Below are positions 33,187-59,472 of a stretch of DNA of 64,000 bases, one piece after another. Position numbers and translations under genes: made by a program. Source of the stretch: Winogradskyella sp. GTDB lineage: Bacteria > Bacteroidota > Bacteroidia > Flavobacteriales > Flavobacteriaceae. The stretch spans positions 160,650-224,649 of the forward strand of contig NZ_JANQOM010000013.1 in the NCBI RefSeq assembly GCF_028289625.1, in the 5' to 3' direction. The notes below the pieces were generated by a model. The model saw nothing but the letters and a program-made list of their open reading frames with translations. It had not been told where the DNA came from and made no database searches. Each line of letters opens with the position of its first letter. Within the stretch, counting starts at the first letter, position 1.

Positions 33187-34038
33187 ATGATTAAGATAAA
33201 AAGTCTAGTGTTTCTATTATTTCTTACTAGCGGCTGCCAAACTGGAAATCTGGAAGTGATTGCTGATTTGCCTCTAAGTCTTAATGAAGTTTCTGGTATT
33301 GCCATTGATAAGTACAATAAAGTGATTTGGATGGTTAACGATAGTGGCAATAAACCGCTTCTTTTTGGTATTGATGGTTCTGGCAACATTGCTAAAACCA
33401 TAAAAGTAAAAGCCAAGAATAGGGACTGGGAGGATCTTACGATGGATCCAAGAGGTAATCTTTATATTGGGAATTTTGGGAATAACGATAATGATAGTAA
33501 AGGACTTTCCATATTAAAAATCGCTGCCGATTCTTTAAAAAATAACCCTGAAACGGTTATTCCGGAGGTTATACGCTTTAAATATCCTGAACAAAAGAAA
33601 TTTCCACCTAAGAAGAATAAACGCCATTTTGATTGTGAGGCTTTCTTCTTTTATAAGGATAGTCTATATTTATTTACCAAAAGTCGTTCTTCAAAACATA
33701 AAGGGAAAACCAACCTTTACTCATTACCAGCTAGTAAAGGTAGCTATGAAGCAAAATTCAAAGACACATTTAATACTTGCGAGGAATCTAAATGTTGGGT
33801 GACATCAGCCGACATAAATGCCAAAGGAGACAAAATGGCTGTTTTAACTGAGAACTCGGTATTTGTTTTTTCTAATCTTAACACTAATGCTTTTTTAAAA
33901 TCTGAATACAAACGGTATCCCTTCTCTTATGATTCTCAAAAGGAAAGTGTGACATTTAAAAATGACAGTACTTTGTATATTGCTGATGAATACCTTGGTG
34001 TTGATGGTGGAAACTTATATAGCTTTAAGATAGATTGA
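33187..34038 (+). CDS. SdiA-regulated-like lipoprotein with beta-propeller fold
   Basis: A 283-aa lipoprotein (LLFLTSGCQTG, Cys at about 17). Repeated strands of the type SGIAIDKYNKVIWMVND and LTMDPRGNLYIGNFGN suggest a six-bladed propeller resembling SdiA-regulated/NHL-like proteins. The family's role is unknown; the fold could bind a ligand or act as an esterase-like scaffold. The 3' end overlaps the convergent ppk1 stop by 14 bp. Confidence 0.68.
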   Translation: MIKIKSLVFLLFLTSGCQTGNLEVIADLPLSLNEVSGIAIDKYNKVIWMVNDSGNKPLLFGIDGSGNIAKTIKVKAKNRDWEDLTMDPRGNLYIGNFGNNDNDSKGLSILKIAADSLKNNPETVIPEVIRFKYPEQKKFPPKKNKRHFDCEAFFFYKDSLYLFTKSRSSKHKGKTNLYSLPASKGSYEAKFKDTFNTCEESKCWVTSADINAKGDKMAVLTENSVFVFSNLNTNAFLKSEYKRYPFSYDSQKESVTFKNDSTLYIADEYLGVDGGNLYSFKID

Positions 34039-36058
34039 GAGTTTCTTTTTCACTAAATTGTAATTCGCCAAGATATTCTTTAAAATCCAATTGAGAATTT
34101 AGTTTAGCTTTTTCGTCATTTTGATACGTATTGGTTTGATTCTCGTCAATGATTCTACCTTTGGTATTATCGTGCCACTGTAAATTGACACAAGTCTGTA
34201 TAATGGCTTTTAGCTTCTGATCTTTGACTGGCACCAAAACCTCAACCCGTCTGTCTAAATTACGCTCCATACAATCCGCAGACCCAATAAACATGTCGTT
34301 TGCTCCATTATTTCCAAACACATAGACTCTTGCATGCTCTAAATATTTACCAACTATACTAATCCCTGTAATATTTTCACTTAAACCTTCAACACTTGGC
34401 TTTAAGCAACAAATACCTCTTACTAATAATTGTACTTTAACGCCTACCCTAGACGCTTCATAGAGTTTATCAATAACCCCTCTATCCTCTAAGCTATTCA
34501 TCTTAAAGAACAAGAAACCATCACCTCCACCTTTTGCAATTGTAATTTCGTTATCAATCCTTTGATATAGTTGATTTCTTGTTGAGAAGGGCGACATCCA
34601 TATCGTCTTTGGCGAAGGTTTATAAGTCGTGTCCATTAAGAACTTAAAGACTTCATCTAAATCTTTGGTAATCGTTTGGTCTGCCGTAAGCAAGGCAAAA
34701 TCAGAGTATATCTTAGCACTTTTCTCATTGAAGTTACCTGTGCCGATATAGGCAATGTCTTTACGGGTAGTTTTAATTAGTAAAATTTTAGAATGCACTT
34801 TTAAATCGGGCATACTATAAAGTACTTTAGCACCCATCTGCTGTAGTTTTTCTCCCCAATCAATATTATTCTCCTCATCAAAACGTGCTTTGGCCTCAAT
34901 AAAAACAGTAACCTTTTTATTATTGGCCAAACACTTTAATAAGTTATGTGCTACGAGTGAAGTTTTAGATACTCTGTAGAGCGTTATAAATATGGATTCA
35001 ACATCCGCTCTTTGAGAAGCTTCTTCTATAAGCCGTATTACTGAATCGTACTTTTGATATGGAAATGACAACAGATGGTCTTCAATTAGGATACTATCTA
35101 TAACACTATTTGCTTTACTCAATACAGGATGAGAGAATTGATTATTATCCGTACCACCTATTCTCTGTTCTATATCAGGAAACTGAAAGAAATCACTAAA
35201 GTTATGGTATCTTCCACCAGGCATTAAATCTGTTTTCTTAAGGTTAAGAAGTGCTCTTAAACGCTTTATAAATTGCTTTGGCATTTTGCTATCGTACAGA
35301 ATACGTGTAGGTATGCCAAAATCCCTATTCTTGAGGCTTTTCTTTATAAGGTTAATAAGCTCGCCATCGTCCTCTTCATAATACAATTCCCCATCTCTAG
35401 TAATCTTAATGCTGTACAAATTCTTGGCATTGTAATCTGGTAATAGATACTTGATATTATCTCTAATTATTTCATCAATAAACGTGATATGTTGTTGCCC
35501 ATCTTTCTTCGGAAATTCTACAAATCGATTACAGGCATTTGTAGGTATTAAAATCAACAAAGCTCTGTTTTTGGTATTGGCAAAAAAGTAAAGGCTTTTA
35601 TCTTTTATAAAATCAAAGTTTGTTTCTTTTGTTAAATCATAAATTTTAACATGTGGTCTTATCTCTGAAAGAAAAATGTTCTTGGAGTAGACTTTTTCTT
35701 CAGTGTTATAATCAATAGCTTCAATTAAGGCTACTCCTTCTCCATTTAACTCTTTTAGAAGTTTATCTCTGTAAATATGTCCGAATCGTTCTTGAAGCTT
35801 ATCTACTTTTCCCTGTATGAGTTTAATGATTCGTTTTGGTTTTTCCTTGAATTGAATTGACGAGTCTTTTTGGAGTTTTCTGAACTCTCTTAATTTTGAA
35901 ACTCTTACTCTATAAAACTCATCTAAATTTGAAGAAAAAATAGCCAAGAAGTTAAGACGCTCATTGAGCGTATTGTTTTTGTCTTCGGCTTCTTGAAGCA
36001 CTCTCTCATTAAAAGAAAGCCAACTTAAATCCCTGTTGAAGTAATCTTTTTTTGCCAT
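34025..36058 (-). CDS. ppk1: Polyphosphate kinase 1
   Basis: A 677-aa PPK1: N-terminal FNRDLSWLSFNERVLQEA helix, a middle domain, then two catalytic domains. The autophosphorylated His is in the KVHSKILLI segment, followed by YIGTGNFNEKSA and, nearer the C-terminus, HARVYVFGN and GSADCMERNLDRR. It reversibly makes polyphosphate from ATP. The length is normal. A TATTTTTG box ends 5 nt before the ATG, so the transcript may be leaderless. The 3' end overlaps the convergent lipoprotein gene by 14 bp. Confidence 0.95.
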   Translation of the reverse strand: MAKKDYFNRDLSWLSFNERVLQEAEDKNNTLNERLNFLAIFSSNLDEFYRVRVSKLREFRKLQKDSSIQFKEKPKRIIKLIQGKVDKLQERFGHIYRDKLLKELNGEGVALIEAIDYNTEEKVYSKNIFLSEIRPHVKIYDLTKETNFDFIKDKSLYFFANTKNRALLILIPTNACNRFVEFPKKDGQQHITFIDEIIRDNIKYLLPDYNAKNLYSIKITRDGELYYEEDDGELINLIKKSLKNRDFGIPTRILYDSKMPKQFIKRLRALLNLKKTDLMPGGRYHNFSDFFQFPDIEQRIGGTDNNQFSHPVLSKANSVIDSILIEDHLLSFPYQKYDSVIRLIEEASQRADVESIFITLYRVSKTSLVAHNLLKCLANNKKVTVFIEAKARFDEENNIDWGEKLQQMGAKVLYSMPDLKVHSKILLIKTTRKDIAYIGTGNFNEKSAKIYSDFALLTADQTITKDLDEVFKFLMDTTYKPSPKTIWMSPFSTRNQLYQRIDNEITIAKGGGDGFLFFKMNSLEDRGVIDKLYEASRVGVKVQLLVRGICCLKPSVEGLSENITGISIVGKYLEHARVYVFGNNGANDMFIGSADCMERNLDRRVEVLVPVKDQKLKAIIQTCVNLQWHDNTKGRIIDENQTNTYQNDEKAKLNSQLDFKEYLGELQFSEKETLNLS

Positions 36059-43261: not shown

Positions 43262-46200
43262 TTAAAACCCAAAACCTAACTGAAATGCTATACGCAAGTC
43301 ATCGCTACTACTAAATGCCGAAATATGAGCGGTCATCATCTGTGCCATATTAACAAAGAAGCCACCACCAACAGAGTTGTTCCACTTGTCTGAATTGTCA
43401 TTTTCTAACCAAACGCGTCCATAATCTACACCTCCAAAAACACCAATATGGATTGGTAATAGCCCAGTTTTTAAACGTCCAAAATTCCAACGAACATCTG
43501 TAGATTGCGAAAAAGCAGATTTACCCGTAAAACGTTGGAATCTGTAGCCCCTAAGTCCTGTTCTTGCCCCCAAGGTTGCCCCTTGGTAAAATTCAAAACC
43601 ATCACCCAAATTGACATGACCTCTCAAATTTGTTGCCAAAACCAATTGCCCACTTGGCACCAACCTATAATCAAAGCCCAATTCAGGTATGATATAACCA
43701 AAGCCTTTCGTAGTATCAACGTTGTTTCTGTATCCAAGATGTAATGATGTTTGGAATCCAAGTGTTGGAAATGCATCATCGTCTTTATTGACGTATTGAT
43801 ACTTGGCGTCTACGCCATAGAAATCCTGCATATCAAATACGGCATCATCTGCTGGTAAGCTTTCTATAAATCGTCCTGCTGTTCGCTCAACCTCATTACT
43901 TTCGTAAGTAATACCAAACTTTAGAACACCGCCCATTTTTCCACGCCAAATTAAGGATGGAGTAAATCTTAATGTTCTTATTTTTACCCTGTTAAAATCT
44001 CTATCCACATCTAAGCCATCATTTTCATCAGCTTCTGGGTTGGGTGTTTCATTACCAAAACCAAAAAAGTTAACCGCAAAGTTAGGGCTGTTAAAGTGTG
44101 CTTCCACACCAAAATTGACATTTGGTAAGATATTGGCAAATTCTCCATTATAATTCAAATCAAAACCACTTGTTGCGAAATAATAGGACGCAGTTACTTG
44201 ATGTTGTGACGTAAAAGGATTACGCTCAAATCCATAGTTGGTCCATACTGCATTAACACCAATTCTTAATCCATCGTCAGGATTGGCCCCTAAACTGGGT
44301 AATATTTGGGTGGTGTTATTTTTTAATTTTTTGTAATCATAAACGTTGGTCATGTAGTTGTCCGAAAACTTCTCGTGCCCCTTGTTTGTTACTACTGTGC
44401 TCTTTTTTGATTTATAGTCATAATACGTTACACGTTTTCCGTTTTTGATGTTGTAGGTGTCATTATTTTGCCCACCAACCAATCGCACTTTTATTAATTG
44501 GTTACCATCGCCAAAAACTTCAAGTACATCATCGTCATCCAAGGCATAAATCCAGATTTCCTTGGTGTCCTCGTGATTATAAGTTCGTTCATGGAAGATG
44601 TCTTTTTTCTCACCTCCTTTGATTCTATACGCCGTCACTTTCGTTTTACCATTTGGTAAGCGTTCTACATCAAACCAATCATCTTTATTAGTTCCTTTTA
44701 TGACAGCATATTTATTTATGAGTTCAAAATAACGATCAGAGATTTTCTGAAGGTTTGCACGTCTGGCTTTTAAGGTTCTTTTTATTTCCTCGATAGTTTC
44801 ATCCCTTATTTCTTCGGGTATATTTAGAAATACCTTTTCAATGATATCGTCAGTAACATTGTCTTGTATATGTTTTACTTCTGCATCCCAAACTGTTTTT
44901 TCGGATTGTGCAATGATTTCCATATCTAATGGATACGGTTCTACATTGACACCTTTTACATCTTCGAGGTCATCAGAGTATTTACGCAGTAAACGGGCCG
45001 TTGGAATCAACTTTACTGCGGCTCCTAATAAAAAGCCGTCAGACATTCTAGAAAATGCCTGATCGCGGTCTCTAGGCATCGGCCGATATACTTTTTTACC
45101 ATTCTCTTTAAACTCTATCCATCTCCACTGATCTTGATGCCTATCCCAATCTCCAATGAGCATATCGAATAATCTAGCTTTGATGTAGGCGGCCTCATCA
45201 ACAACGATGTCTTCATCCTTATGGATTTTTGCCATCATATCGTTGGTACTTATCAATTCGTCTTGATAGCCGAAACTAGCCTGGTCGCTATGACCCTCCG
45301 ACGTATGCTCTTCAATCATATAAAGCTCGTCACCAAAGTCGTCGTTATACTTACCTAAGGTTTCTTGCTTAGGTATGTAATAAAGTACAGGGTTGGTATG
45401 ATATACGCCAATAGCATCAGCTAAACCCCCAACGACAAATGGCGCATAAGGATGTGCGCCTGTGAACACATCTAAAATAAGGTCTTCGGTTTCTGTATCA
45501 TCAAACTGACCTTCGATGTATTGATCTTTAAAAACTACGGCCTGTAAATACTGCAAAGCCTGCTTTCTAAGGGCTCGCATTACATACTGCGCGCCATTTT
45601 TGTCTTCGAGACGTAATGATTTTGACTGATTTCCGCCTCCTTTTCTAACCACCTTTAAACCTCCAAACAAAGTATCTAGCATTACATTTGGTGCCTTTAC
45701 TGGAGTGCTGTAATACTTTCTAAAACGGTCTCCCCATAAAAATTTTCCAAAACCACTTATATCCGTTTCTTCTTCAGAGTATATGGATGCTGATGTATGC
45801 TCTGGCAGATTGGTTTTAAAATCTCTTTTGGTGTCTTCTTTGTATTCTGAAAATACTGTAGATTGAAATACGTCTTTCTCTTCTTCAGCTGAATAAAACG
45901 ATACATGAGATGAACCATCTTTATACACTATTAACTTGGCATAACCTACTGTACCATAACCAAACTTTCCATTTCCAGTATTTCTTACGGCCGAAATTTT
46001 CGAACCAGAGCCTGATACGATTTGGTGCAAGTTATCTTCTACAATGTATTGTAAATTATGATCATGCCCAGAGACAAACACTACTTTATCATTGGCTTGA
46101 GCCAGAGTTACCAGATGTCTCTTAAAGTCATTATATCTTGGATTTTGAAGATCTACATTGGCAACACCACTGGTTTTTCTAATTATATTTTTTAGTGTCC

Positions 46201-46939
46201 CTAATATGGGTAAAGGTTTCATATGACTGCCAAATGAGTATTGACCTCCATGTGAACCATTGGTATACATTGGATGGTGAATAGCAACTACTGTTGTTTT
46301 ACCTCTTGCTTTTTTAATGAGGCTGTCAAATTCATCTAAAAAATCGGCTCTAGTTTTAATATCACAATCGTCATTAATGGTGGGATGTTTGTCCCAATTG
46401 GTAATATACCAATGGGAATCAACAAGTATTAATTCTATGTCATCGGCAATATGTATCTTATCAATAGGACAACCATTTTCGGGTAAAAACGTATTCTTTC
46501 CCAAAGCCTCTTCTACAAGCTTCTCTTGCCTCTTTAAACTTCCTACACCAGAATACCAATCGTGATTACCAGGAATGAAAATAGTTTCACCTTTAAAGTC
46601 TTTTACCGCATCTATTTGTACTTGTAACCTGTGCTTAGCCAATTCATATTCGCTTGATGATTTTTTTGGCAGACCCTTTTCGTAGATATTATCGCCCAAA
46701 AAAATTGCTGTACTGTTTTCTGAAGCTTTTTTAAGTTCTTTACCAAATGCTAGTATAGCTTTATCTATTTGTCCAAGTTGAGAGTTTCCTGCATCACCGA
46801 TAAGATAAAATGTATGTTTAACTTCTTTCTGTGGTGGTGCTTGTTGTGCATGTTCTCCATCATATTGTGCTTTATAGGTTGCGCAAGAATTAATTAAAAA
46901 AACGGATACAATAAATGAGAGGGAGTGTTTAAACTTCAT
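43262..46939 (-). CDS. Lipoprotein fusion: calcineurin-like phosphoesterase, kinase-like domain and outer-membrane barrel
   Basis: I use the ATG at 46939 (1225 aa), which gives a lipoprotein signal (FLINSCATYK). Residue numbers below follow the 1241-aa ORF. Residues 56-320 are a metallophosphoesterase (GDAG, GDNIYEKG, GNHDWYSG, HHP, GHDHN). Residues about 440-650 look like a HipA/Fam20-type kinase fold: a Gly-rich GGGNQSKSLRLED with a following VMRALRK Lys, then LFDMLIGDWDRHQDQ, then PRDRDQAFSR, which mimic the catalytic loop and metal-binding Asp. Residues about 880-1241 form an Omp85-type barrel (TGLRGYRF, ending FQLGFGF). The N-terminal phosphoesterase and C-terminal barrel are confident; the kinase reading is my inference. 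Its stop is 90 bp from the AraC gene start. Confidence 0.8.
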   Translation of the reverse strand: MKFKHSLSFIVSVFLINSCATYKAQYDGEHAQQAPPQKEVKHTFYLIGDAGNSQLGQIDKAILAFGKELKKASENSTAIFLGDNIYEKGLPKKSSSEYELAKHRLQVQIDAVKDFKGETIFIPGNHDWYSGVGSLKRQEKLVEEALGKNTFLPENGCPIDKIHIADDIELILVDSHWYITNWDKHPTINDDCDIKTRADFLDEFDSLIKKARGKTTVVAIHHPMYTNGSHGGQYSFGSHMKPLPILGTLKNIIRKTSGVANVDLQNPRYNDFKRHLVTLAQANDKVVFVSGHDHNLQYIVEDNLHQIVSGSGSKISAVRNTGNGKFGYGTVGYAKLIVYKDGSSHVSFYSAEEEKDVFQSTVFSEYKEDTKRDFKTNLPEHTSASIYSEEETDISGFGKFLWGDRFRKYYSTPVKAPNVMLDTLFGGLKVVRKGGGNQSKSLRLEDKNGAQYVMRALRKQALQYLQAVVFKDQYIEGQFDDTETEDLILDVFTGAHPYAPFVVGGLADAIGVYHTNPVLYYIPKQETLGKYNDDFGDELYMIEEHTSEGHSDQASFGYQDELISTNDMMAKIHKDEDIVVDEAAYIKARLFDMLIGDWDRHQDQWRWIEFKENGKKVYRPMPRDRDQAFSRMSDGFLLGAAVKLIPTARLLRKYSDDLEDVKGVNVEPYPLDMEIIAQSEKTVWDAEVKHIQDNVTDDIIEKVFLNIPEEIRDETIEEIKRTLKARRANLQKISDRYFELINKYAVIKGTNKDDWFDVERLPNGKTKVTAYRIKGGEKKDIFHERTYNHEDTKEIWIYALDDDDVLEVFGDGNQLIKVRLVGGQNNDTYNIKNGKRVTYYDYKSKKSTVVTNKGHEKFSDNYMTNVYDYKKLKNNTTQILPSLGANPDDGLRIGVNAVWTNYGFERNPFTSQHQVTASYYFATSGFDLNYNGEFANILPNVNFGVEAHFNSPNFAVNFFGFGNETPNPEADENDGLDVDRDFNRVKIRTLRFTPSLIWRGKMGGVLKFGITYESNEVERTAGRFIESLPADDAVFDMQDFYGVDAKYQYVNKDDDAFPTLGFQTSLHLGYRNNVDTTKGFGYIIPELGFDYRLVPSGQLVLATNLRGHVNLGDGFEFYQGATLGARTGLRGYRFQRFTGKSAFSQSTDVRWNFGRLKTGLLPIHIGVFGGVDYGRVWLENDNSDKWNNSVGGGFFVNMAQMMTAHISAFSSSDDLRIAFQLGFGF

Positions 46940-46997
46940 TTGTCTGTTAGTTAAAGAATAAATAAAGTTACAGTTTTTTTCTAACACAAAAAATGTT

Positions 46998-48128
46998 CTA
47001 CCACCAAACGGTATGCTTCATATTTGGACTAGCAATATTAATGGGTTCACCAATCATTGGGGTCGTCAATGGCATTTGTAATTCTTTAGCTTTTTTTTGC
47101 ACACGTTCTATTGGATCAGTCCACGAATGCAGTGCTAACTTAAATGCTCCCCAATGAATAGGCATCATAGCTCTAGCTTGCACATCCACTCCTGCTTGTG
47201 CTGTCTCCTCTGGGAACATGTGTATGTCTGGCCACATCTTATTGTATTGACCACATTCCATCATAGCAAAATCAAAAGGCCCATACTTATCGCCAATTTG
47301 TTTAAAATGCGGCCCATAACCACTATCGCCACTAAAAAACAAACTTGTACTATCTGACTTAATTACCCAAGAACCCCATAAGGTACTCTGCCGATTACTA
47401 AACTTTCTACCTGAAAAATGCTGTGCAGGTGTACAAACTAACTGAATGCCCTTAAAAGTAGTTTCTTGCCACCAATCCATTTCTGATATTTTGTTACTAT
47501 CAATATCCCAAGATTCCAAATGTATTCCGACACCTAAGGGTACATAAAAGGCCTCAACTTTATGCCTTAACTTTTTAATAGATTCATAGTCCAAATGATC
47601 GTAATGGTCATGCGAGATGACGACTGCATCAATTTTTGGAAGTTTTTCAATTTCAATGGGTAATTCCTTACTAAAGCGCTTCCCACCAAGCAAAGGGTGA
47701 GGCGCTGGCACATCGCTAAGCATTGGGTCTATAAGAATATTTTTATCATCTATTTGTAAAAGAAATGACGAATGCCCAAACCAAATGAGACGTGCTCCTT
47801 CAGCATAGTTAGAGACTGCTGCAGAATCTACTTTTTGAACTTTTAAGTCGGTATTAGGTCTTCCTGCCTCAACTTTCTCAAAAAAGAATTTCCTAGATAT
47901 TTTTAGGATTTCTGAAAAGCTCGGATCTTTAGGTACATCTTTTTCATTTACAAAAACACCATCCTTAAACTGTCTTGAAGAACTGTAACGTTCTTGCCTC
48001 TGCTCAGAGATATCACCTCCAAAAGATGGATAAAAATTAACGAATAACATAAAAGCTATCACCAATAAAGCAATTATCCCTAAAATTGATACTAACATAC
48101 GTTTTAATAATTTCTTTATTCTTTTCAT
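46998..48128 (-). CDS. Membrane-anchored MBL-fold metallo-hydrolase (UlaG/NAPE-PLD-like)
   Basis: A 376-aa protein with one N-terminal membrane segment (about 10-31) and a metallo-beta-lactamase fold: HSSFLLQID, the metal-binding SHDHYDHLDY, a GDSGYGPHF strand, and MPIHWGAF near the C-terminus. The family includes NAPE-PLD-like and UlaG-like phosphodiesterases or lactonases. It is probably periplasmic-facing. It overlaps the NmrA-like gene by 4 bp at its start, placing it last in the SDR-AraC-NmrA-MBL operon. Confidence 0.83.
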   Translation of the reverse strand: MKRIKKLLKRMLVSILGIIALLVIAFMLFVNFYPSFGGDISEQRQERYSSSRQFKDGVFVNEKDVPKDPSFSEILKISRKFFFEKVEAGRPNTDLKVQKVDSAAVSNYAEGARLIWFGHSSFLLQIDDKNILIDPMLSDVPAPHPLLGGKRFSKELPIEIEKLPKIDAVVISHDHYDHLDYESIKKLRHKVEAFYVPLGVGIHLESWDIDSNKISEMDWWQETTFKGIQLVCTPAQHFSGRKFSNRQSTLWGSWVIKSDSTSLFFSGDSGYGPHFKQIGDKYGPFDFAMMECGQYNKMWPDIHMFPEETAQAGVDVQARAMMPIHWGAFKLALHSWTDPIERVQKKAKELQMPLTTPMIGEPINIASPNMKHTVWW

Positions 48129-56500: not shown

Positions 56501-58063
56501 TTAAGAACTACAAGATAACATTGAGCAACCTACTTTATACCTAGCCCATTCTGGTCGCTTTGCAAACCACTTTTGGTTCTCGGGTTGCTCATCGTAAGGC
56601 TTCTTGAGTAAATTGAACAATTCGTCAATTAAATTATAATCACCTTTATCTGCTTCGTCAATTGCCAATTGTGCCATATAATTTCTGAGCACATATTTTG
56701 GGTTGACCAAATTCATATGAGCTTTTCGTTCTTGGTCTGTTAGTTGTTCTTTTTGTAATCTTTGGTCGTAAGATTTGAACCAAACTTTCCATTGTTCTGC
56801 TATAGCATCAGAAATCTTGGTTGGGTTATAAAATGCCTGTTCTACCATTTTTAGTCCTGCTTCCTCATTACCTTTCTTATAATGGGACAATAACCTAAAA
56901 AATATAGTCATGTCTGTTTCTGAAAGCAACAAGCAATCCTCTAAGTCAGTGATTAGATGGATATCATTGTTATCTGCAATCCTAAGCCCTAACTTAGACC
57001 TCATCATCTGTAATGACTTTGATTCAAAATCAGTTTGATATTGCTTCAAGACAGTTTCAAAAGGTTCCGCCTCCTCAACCAATGGATAAAGCGCATTGGC
57101 GAGTTGCAACAAATTCCAAAGTCCTATATTAGGCTGATTACCATAACGATAACGCTTGTTTTGTCTATCGGTTGTATTTGGTGTCCAGCCGAAATCGAAT
57201 CCTTCGAGCCAACCGTAAGGTCCATAGTCAATAGTCAATCCTAAAATGGACATGTTATCGGTATTCATTACGCCATGTACAAAGCCTACGCGCTGCCAGT
57301 GAATAATCATCTCTAAGGTTCTACGAGCAACTTCTTGAAAAAGCTTTACATAAGTGTCTTTTGAAGGCTCACCCAATTCTGGGTAAAAATACTTTAAGGT
57401 ATAATCCGTAAGTAGCTTAAGGTTCTTATAATCCTGCCTTGCCGCAAATAACTCAAAGTTTCCAAAACGAATAAATGTCGGTGAAACACGGCAAACAATA
57501 GCACCTTTCTCATAAGCGGCATTACCATCATAGAGCATATCTCTTAAAACCTCATCGCCTGAGGTCATTAAACTTAGAGCTCTTGTTGTTGGAACGTTTA
57601 AATGAAACATAGCTTCGCTACATAGGTACTCTCGAACAGAAGATCTTAAAACTGCCAAACCGTCCCCTTGCCTAGAATATGGTGTTTCGCCTGCGCCTTT
57701 TAACTGTAATGCCCAACGTTTTTGGTTATGCTCAATTTCAAACAGGTTTATGGCTCTACCATCTCCTAATTGCCCTGCCCAATTTCCGAATTGGTGACCA
57801 GCATAAGCCATAGCATAAGGATTTGTATGAGGATAAATTTTTGTTCCTGAAAAAACCTCCAAAAAGTCTTGCGAATCGATGTCTTTTTTATCTAAACCAA
57901 GCACCTTGGTCATTTCTGAAGACACATGTATCAATTTTGGATTTGATGGGATTTTTGGAGCCACAAAGGAATACATGGCCTCAAAAACTTTTCGTCTTGA
58001 GTTATCAGTATTTGGGTCTGAGGCTAGTTGGCTATTAAATGTATCACTAATATTTAGTTTCAT
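56501..58063 (-). CDS. selO: SelO protein adenylyltransferase (YdiU family)
   Basis: A 520-aa SelO pseudokinase. It has the HTNPYAMAYAGHQFGNWAGQLGDG segment, the nucleotide loop GAGETPYSRQGDG, and the HGVMNTDNMSILG active-site region with the metal-binding Asn/Asp. SelO transfers AMP to proteins and responds to oxidative stress. The C-terminus ends CSMLSCSS with Cys where eukaryotic forms have selenocysteine. It leads the SelO-DUF427-hydrolase/OsmC-EgtB-EgtD run. Confidence 0.92.
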   Translation of the reverse strand: MKLNISDTFNSQLASDPNTDNSRRKVFEAMYSFVAPKIPSNPKLIHVSSEMTKVLGLDKKDIDSQDFLEVFSGTKIYPHTNPYAMAYAGHQFGNWAGQLGDGRAINLFEIEHNQKRWALQLKGAGETPYSRQGDGLAVLRSSVREYLCSEAMFHLNVPTTRALSLMTSGDEVLRDMLYDGNAAYEKGAIVCRVSPTFIRFGNFELFAARQDYKNLKLLTDYTLKYFYPELGEPSKDTYVKLFQEVARRTLEMIIHWQRVGFVHGVMNTDNMSILGLTIDYGPYGWLEGFDFGWTPNTTDRQNKRYRYGNQPNIGLWNLLQLANALYPLVEEAEPFETVLKQYQTDFESKSLQMMRSKLGLRIADNNDIHLITDLEDCLLLSETDMTIFFRLLSHYKKGNEEAGLKMVEQAFYNPTKISDAIAEQWKVWFKSYDQRLQKEQLTDQERKAHMNLVNPKYVLRNYMAQLAIDEADKGDYNLIDELFNLLKKPYDEQPENQKWFAKRPEWARYKVGCSMLSCSS

Positions 58064-58236: not shown

Positions 58237-59472
58237 ATGGAAAATATCATCCTTGAAGCAGAGAAATATATTACGTCCTATTTAAATGAAAATTTAGACT
58301 CCTCCTTTGTTTATCATAACCTAGCTCATACACAACGCGTTGTAAATAAAATTAAAGAACTTACTGAAGGTAGCGATATTGGCGAAACCGAAAAACAACA
58401 ACTCATCTTGGCGGCCTGGTTTCATGATTCTGGATTTACCAAAACCATTGATGGTCATGAAAAAGAGGGGGCAGCTATTGCTTCGAATTTTTTAAAGTCC
58501 CATAATGTTTCAGAGGAAAATATAAAGGCTATAACTCATCTTATTTTAGCTACTGAAATGAGCTACAAGCCAAAAACAGAAATTGAGGGCCTCATAAGGG
58601 ATGCTGATTGCGCCCACTTATCAAGTAAAAATTATGGTGATTATGCGGCTCTTTTAAGAAAAGAATGGGAATTAACACTAGGTAAAAAGGTTTCTAAAGC
58701 CGATTGGTTAAAAGAAAATATTTCATTTTTAACCAATCACACGTTCAATACCGATTTGGCTACCAGTAAATGGGAAGGTCGAAAAAGTAAAAACTTAGCT
58801 AACCTATTACAAAGTCAGAGTAAAATAAAAGGTGATACTGAAAAATTAAAACAGAAAAAGGCTGAGCTAAAGTTTAAACAAGAAAAACTAGACTTACCTG
58901 ATCGCGGTATCGAGACGATGTTTAGAGTTGCACTGAGAAATCATATTACACTTAGTGACATTGCAGATACTAAAGCCAATATTCTGCTGTCTGTTAATGC
59001 TATTATTATTTCTTTGGTACTCTCTAACTTGGTGTCTAAGCTAGATAATCCTTCTAATTACTACCTTATATGGCCGACAGCTATTTTTGCTATTTCTACT
59101 GTAGTTTCCATAATTTTATCTGTATTGGCCACAAGACCAAATGTAACGAGTGGAAAATTTACCAAAGAGGATGTTGCCAATAAAAAGGTAAACCTTTTAT
59201 TTTTTGGGAATTTTCATAAAATGAGTCTTCCTGAATTTGAATGGGCCATGCAAGAAATGATGAAGGACAAAGAATACCTTTATGGATCCCTTACCAAAGA
59301 CCTGTACTTTTTAGGATTGGTACTCAATAGAAAGTATAGCTTACTTCGATTAACTTATACGGTTTTTGCGATAGGTATAATAATTAGCGTTATTGCCTTT
59401 GGAATAGCCTTTCAGTTTTCTGGTACGGAAACGGTAATTACTGATATTATCGATACTACAGGGCAGCAATAG
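58237..59472 (+). CDS. HD phosphohydrolase fused to a PycTM (Pycsar effector-like) transmembrane domain
   Basis: A 411-aa protein. Residues about 20-150 are an HD domain with candidate metal ligands H27/H31, H63-D64 and D122 (WFHDSGF, RDADCAH). A coiled-coil-like linker (about 190-222) follows. Residues about 227-393 form the Pycsar effector TM domain, with FRVALRNHITLSDIADTKANILL and three hydrophobic segments (about 248-266, 277-296, 373-393). In Pycsar, the effector is activated by cCMP or cUMP made by a dedicated cyclase. No cyclase is next to this gene, so it may be self-contained, with the HD domain perhaps degrading a cyclic nucleotide. The cell-wide role is inference. Confidence 0.85.
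   Translation: MENIILEAEKYITSYLNENLDSSFVYHNLAHTQRVVNKIKELTEGSDIGETEKQQLILAAWFHDSGFTKTIDGHEKEGAAIASNFLKSHNVSEENIKAITHLILATEMSYKPKTEIEGLIRDADCAHLSSKNYGDYAALLRKEWELTLGKKVSKADWLKENISFLTNHTFNTDLATSKWEGRKSKNLANLLQSQSKIKGDTEKLKQKKAELKFKQEKLDLPDRGIETMFRVALRNHITLSDIADTKANILLSVNAIIISLVLSNLVSKLDNPSNYYLIWPTAIFAISTVVSIILSVLATRPNVTSGKFTKEDVANKKVNLLFFGNFHKMSLPEFEWAMQEMMKDKEYLYGSLTKDLYFLGLVLNRKYSLLRLTYTVFAIGIIISVIAFGIAFQFSGTETVITDIIDTTGQQ

Follow-up and report, generated by a model that had tools for sequence, protein, structure and literature searches.

The window analyzed here, a stretch of 64,000 nucleotides from a Winogradskyella sp. contig, contains an ORF on its minus strand (43262-46987) that encodes 1241 amino acids when counted from a GTG codon, the numbering used for all residues below. 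The ATG at 46939 (M17) was preferred as the probable start because the signal peptide fits better from there. This signal peptide and its lipobox (INSC, Cys35; 46883-46939, minus strand) were recognized from the sequence together with a CATYK/CATLK motif common to relatives, and a crude pattern finds a lipobox-like sequence in 92 of 136 full-length relatives. The ORF encodes a large outer-membrane protein in which Metallophos is the only curated domain match above cut-off, so that it would usually be recognized as nothing more than a phosphatase. The sequence motifs quoted in a first-pass annotation of this DNA are all present in the ORF; the residue numbers given there were one off, the correct ones being D615, R616, H617, D640, and D642.

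The N-terminal part of the protein (residues ∼56-379; 45851-46822, minus strand) is a metallophosphoesterase domain of the type-5 acid phosphatase-like kind, which bears out the earlier proposal of a phosphoesterase in this polypeptide (Metallophos E = 6.5e-8, above the Pfam cut-off). The metal ligands of a purple acid phosphatase are kept in a pattern (D65, D99, Y102, N141, H237/H238, H308, and H310) that includes GDxxY, and all 39 full-length relatives compared have these motifs unchanged. Human tartrate-resistant acid phosphatase (TRAP) matches the domain (E = 2e-3), with GHDHNLQY common to both, and a fold search with the full-length model returned GAP50, a relative of the TRAP superfamily, as the top match (2.5e-10). 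Unlike the type-5 enzymes with which it has GHDHNLQY and the GDxxY-containing metal-ligand pattern in common, the window domain shares its polypeptide with a kinase-fold domain and an outer-membrane barrel, and it is missing from many relatives of the protein. A metallophosphoesterase of Riemerella was considered as a possible match for the window protein but was not equated with it, being listed as an effector of the type IX secretion system.

The C terminus (43265-44314, minus strand) is predicted to form a 16-strand barrel of the Omp85 type. It matches NCBIfam Omp85_fam with E = 1.3e-13, under the curated cut-off, and the outer-membrane barrel proposed in the first-pass annotation is further backed by the full-length model (pLDDT 82.6), which has 16 barrel strands, and by the fold search with this model, in which the BamA and TamA barrels came next after GAP50. 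Loop L6 carries LRGY, an instance of the (V/L)RG(F/Y) motif, and the same form of the motif has been reported for Flavobacterium johnsoniae BamA (PMC12611786); the lipoprotein N terminus is a feature also of TamL (PMC12045153). In contrast to BamA, TamA, and TamL, the window protein has enzyme domains and a beta-rich linker module (44363-44710, minus strand; from the secondary structure of the full model), and no POTRA pattern was found in the predicted secondary structure between the kinase-fold domain and the barrel. Identity with a subunit of the BAM complex was rejected as far as the subunit descriptions go, F. johnsoniae BamG, BamH, BamM, and BamP being otherwise described (PMC12611786). 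By analogy with other members of the Omp85 superfamily, both enzyme domains of the window protein would by default be located in the periplasm and not on the surface, because Omp85 barrels normally keep their N-terminal domains in the periplasm.

Between the phosphatase and the linker lies a domain (residues ∼412-760; 44708-45754, minus strand) that has no curated match in Pfam or NCBIfam, and for which a search of the PDB with the single sequence gave no match. When a profile of 19 sequences was used instead, the Helicobacter HipA-like kinase CtkA was matched with E = 2.5e-4, with GDWDRHQDQW aligned to GNFDRHNGNW. An AlphaFold2 model of residues 406-815, built from 81 sequences, had a pLDDT of 86.9 and a pTM of 0.88. 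The first-pass annotation had proposed a structure search with such a model, and when this was done with Foldseek against the PDB, kinase-like folds were returned throughout the best 50 matches. CtkA was the top match (2.3e-6), and 7vkb (a bacterial kinase complex, 2.0e-4), Fam20C (3.7e-4), PI4KII (6e-4), CotH (2.4e-3), Rio2, and ADCK3 were also matched; the TM-scores were modest (0.37-0.55 for CtkA), and identity was 10-14%. On the strength of the model and these comparisons, the middle domain almost certainly has a protein-kinase fold, and the HipA/Fam20 resemblance noted earlier is upheld at the level of fold. The interval formerly assigned to it, 44710-45670, does fall inside this region (residues 439-759), although the domain proper extends over residues ∼412-760.

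Membership of the known families is a separate matter. The gathering score of HipA_C (PF07804) was not reached (4 of the 19 members matched, none better than E = 0.047; profile-profile E = 0.05), and CotH (PF08757) gave no match in the family search and a profile-profile E of 0.0029 at a probability of 11%, so that both assignments fell short by both methods and were rejected. Family searches likewise gave no match to Fam20C (PF06702), with which the likeness is one of fold alone, or to the SelO family.

Conservation within the kinase-fold domain was counted over 56 diverse, non-redundant relatives. The Gly-rich loop GGGNQSK (residues 450-456; 45620-45640, minus strand) lies between beta-1 and beta-2 according to the strands of the AlphaFold2 model and the alignment. 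The segment YVMRALRK (residues 468-475) follows, in which, according to the modeled strand 467-472 and the alignment, the third strand has R471 where a lysine usually stands (R471 and K475; 45563-45577, minus strand; 50/56 and 51/56). An AxK-type beta-3 lysine is thus not found in the domain, R471 standing in its place and K475 four residues further on. The equivalent of the catalytic loop, DWDRHQDQWRW (613-623; 45119-45151, minus strand), lies within GDWDRHQDQWRW (residues 612-623); in the alignment D615 corresponds to CtkA D155 and Q620 to CtkA N160, so the usual metal-ligand Asn is replaced by Gln. The metal-binding, DFG-equivalent motif D640-R-D642 (45062-45070, minus strand), part of PRDRDQAF (residues 638-645), was located from the CtkA profile, conservation, and profile-profile comparison.

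The kinase-superfamily hallmarks of a Gly loop, a catalytic Asp, and a metal-binding Asp are conserved among the 56 relatives. R605, G651, and R742 are invariant, and G450-452, Q454, R471, K475, E559, D613, D615, R616, H617, Q620, D640, and D642 are each present in 48-55 of them; D615, R616, Q620, D640, D642, R471, and K475 are retained in 50-53, and H617 in 48. Overall, the glycine loop, the beta-3 basic residues, the DWDRHxxQW loop, and the DRD motif are kept in ∼90% of the relatives, and this conservation indicates that the motifs do not occur by chance. Judging from the alignment to CtkA, the catalytic, metal-binding, and beta-3 basic residues would cluster in one pocket.

The kinase-fold domain occurs in at least four architectures: the phosphatase-kinase-barrel form (∼1240 amino acids), a kinase-barrel form (∼860-930 amino acids), a lipoprotein-like kinase followed by a beta-module (∼500-590 amino acids), and a 430-amino acid protein with an N-terminal membrane segment before the domain. 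It follows that the kinase-fold domain is the constant part, and since many relatives are of the kinase-barrel form without a phosphatase, the phosphoesterase is an optional partner and not half of a fixed machine such as the putative one for phosphotransfer to surface glycans, lipids, or proteins suggested in the first-pass annotation. The domain is found in 112 of 297 genomes and 61 of 140 genera of a phylum-wide sample of Bacteroidota. One relative, from Parabacteroides distasonis, is annotated as "hypothetical protein." The gene is single-copy in the genome of the window; at three other loci, one with three copies, kinase-domain paralogues are in tandem or clustered. At seven loci that encode the stand-alone, membrane-anchored protein of ∼430 amino acids, a C-terminal CFxC end is conserved.

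The strongest co-occurring partner of the kinase gene, identified from Pfam matches, is a gene for an HD-PycTM protein (58237-59472, plus strand), which joins an HD phosphohydrolase-like domain to the transmembrane domain of Pycsar effectors. Such a gene is present at 69 of 80 relatives' loci, often just upstream and pointing away, and at one of the loci with a stand-alone membrane-anchored relative it lies directly upstream. In the 297 genomes, a strong PycTM match was found in 94 of the 112 with the kinase gene, compared with 3 of the 185 without it, and in 77 of these 94 the two genes are at most 12 kb apart. A Mantel-Haenszel test stratified by family gave a p value of about 8e-22, from a table compiled by hand in which the count for one large family is approximate. 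The HD-PycTM genes form a chromosomal subfamily whose presence follows that of the outer-membrane kinase throughout the phylum. Among the matches listed, the Pycsar-type genes that match PycTM less strongly seem to be distinct from those linked to the kinase gene, and next to the window's own HD-PycTM gene there is no pyrimidine cyclase of the Pycsar arrangement.

Other recurrent neighbors are a propeller-like protein, the polyphosphate kinase PPK1, a SixA-like phosphatase, PAP2, and a cyclase-TPR protein, joined in one family by CotH and an outer-membrane porin-like gene; at loci other than the window, several of the names were assigned by eye from sequence. The cyclase-TPR gene, itself named from sequence, is near the kinase gene in 6 of 20 wider loci. 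A PPK1 gene lies within 10 kb of the kinase gene in 19 of 79 genomes examined, from 11 families, against a chance expectation of ∼1 by a rough estimate based on genome size. The window carries HD-PycTM, PAP2, a PPK1 paralogue assigned with Pfam (34025-36058, minus strand; 9.4 kb from the kinase domain), the propeller gene (33187-34038, plus strand; a weak phytase-like/SdiA-regulated match), and, beside the HD-PycTM gene and ∼9.5 kb from the kinase gene, a gene for SelO, which is also a kinase-fold protein (56501-58063, minus strand; E = 1.6e-124). Immediately upstream of the kinase gene is a metallo-beta-lactamase-fold gene (Lactamase_B_2; 46998-48128, minus strand); a conserved operon of these two genes was rejected, the pairing being present only at the window locus among the relatives searched. 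At four loci of one family, a CotH gene, an outer-membrane porin-like gene, and PAP2 are clustered with a kinase-barrel gene. The HD-PycTM, PPK1, SixA, and PAP2 neighbors suggest an envelope module linked to phosphate or polyphosphate.

In the reading that we favor and consider probable, the protein is a kinase-superfamily phosphotransferase that acts outside the cytoplasm, anchored in the outer membrane and encoded in a phosphate-linked gene module. The N-terminal lipid and the C-terminal Omp85-type barrel would keep the exported kinase-like domain at the inner face of the outer membrane. The central domain is likely to be an active phosphotransferase. From the positions of the motifs, donor phosphates would be bound by the Gly-rich loop and R471/K475, and metal by Q620 and D640, with D615 as the catalytic base. 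The fold (as predicted and compared), the conservation, the architectures, and the gene linkage come from the analyses above; the rest of this picture, from the side of export to catalysis, donor, and acceptor, is inference. Because a purple-acid-phosphatase-like domain is fused to it in the window protein, one polypeptide could both add and remove phosphate. The main difficulty for this reading is to account for the phosphate donor, since the periplasm is generally considered free of ATP. On the linkage to PPK1, polyphosphate is at most a candidate donor, and that this link is present in only about a quarter of genomes also counts against the reading.

The Arg in place of the AxK lysine and the Gln in place of the metal-ligand Asn could mean altered chemistry, or that the domain is a pseudokinase. 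In the latter case, our main rival explanation, the domain would have kept its fold for binding or regulation: it would sense a nucleotide, phosphate, or polyphosphate and govern the barrel or the phosphatase but transfer no phosphate itself, as an extracytoplasmic location without ATP might also lead one to expect. We consider this unlikely: D615, Q620, D640, and D642 are found in 50-52 of the 56 diverse relatives, a degree of retention that inactive enzymes do not usually show, and Fam20C likewise departs from Asn at the metal-ligand position. Some proteins with kinase-like folds catalyze other reactions, and with a SelO gene nearby, the domain might instead transfer something other than phosphate, such as AMP as in SelO. 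The domain lacks a SelO-family match, however, and the genes associated with it (PPK1, SixA, PAP2, and phosphatase) speak for phosphate chemistry, making such a transferase distinctly improbable. The absence of any curated match above cut-off besides Metallophos would suit an ordinary outer-membrane phosphatase with a linker and chance motifs in its middle, but this portion is strongly conserved, has a predicted kinase fold, and is found in kinase-barrel, lipoprotein-kinase, and membrane-anchored proteins that have no phosphatase domain, so this explanation is already contradicted and has almost no likelihood left.

An exported phosphotransferase of this kind would differ from the kinases that it most resembles. 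CtkA and the HipA-like kinases (PDB 3akj-3akl) are nearest by both sequence profile and fold, whereas the window domain would be exported, is fused to a barrel, has the Gln and Arg substitutions, and scores under the HipA_C threshold. Fam20C and CotH are of the same fold class and work outside the cytoplasm, and CotH has the P-x-D-x-D-x-x-F arrangement in common with the window domain; however, the window domain belongs to neither Pfam family, to our knowledge no barrel or phosphatase occurs in those families, and CotH is a separate neighboring gene in some genomes that encode the kinase-fold domain. No paper describing the domain was found in the open-access literature searched. We regard the fold as known and the family and the architecture as new. 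Extracytoplasmic kinases are known in animals and spore coats, and we know of none that is built into a bacterial outer-membrane barrel.

A broader scheme, which we offer as a conjecture and think quite unlikely, is one of extracytoplasmic phosphorylation in Bacteroidota: a kinase-fold enzyme anchored in the outer membrane would modify envelope proteins or lipids with phosphate that comes not from cytoplasmic ATP but from another donor, possibly polyphosphate made by the linked PPK1 paralogue, the fused phosphatase would reverse the modification, and HD-PycTM would couple the system to the inner membrane. The kinase-fold domain is a concrete candidate for an enzyme with which Bacteroidota might phosphorylate components of their envelope, and the uncharacterized chromosomal HD-PycTM gene, being tightly linked to it, gains a possible context. 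With related proteins encoded across the phylum next to genes that handle phosphate, Bacteroidota may possess a system for phosphorylation beyond the inner membrane that has not been described before.
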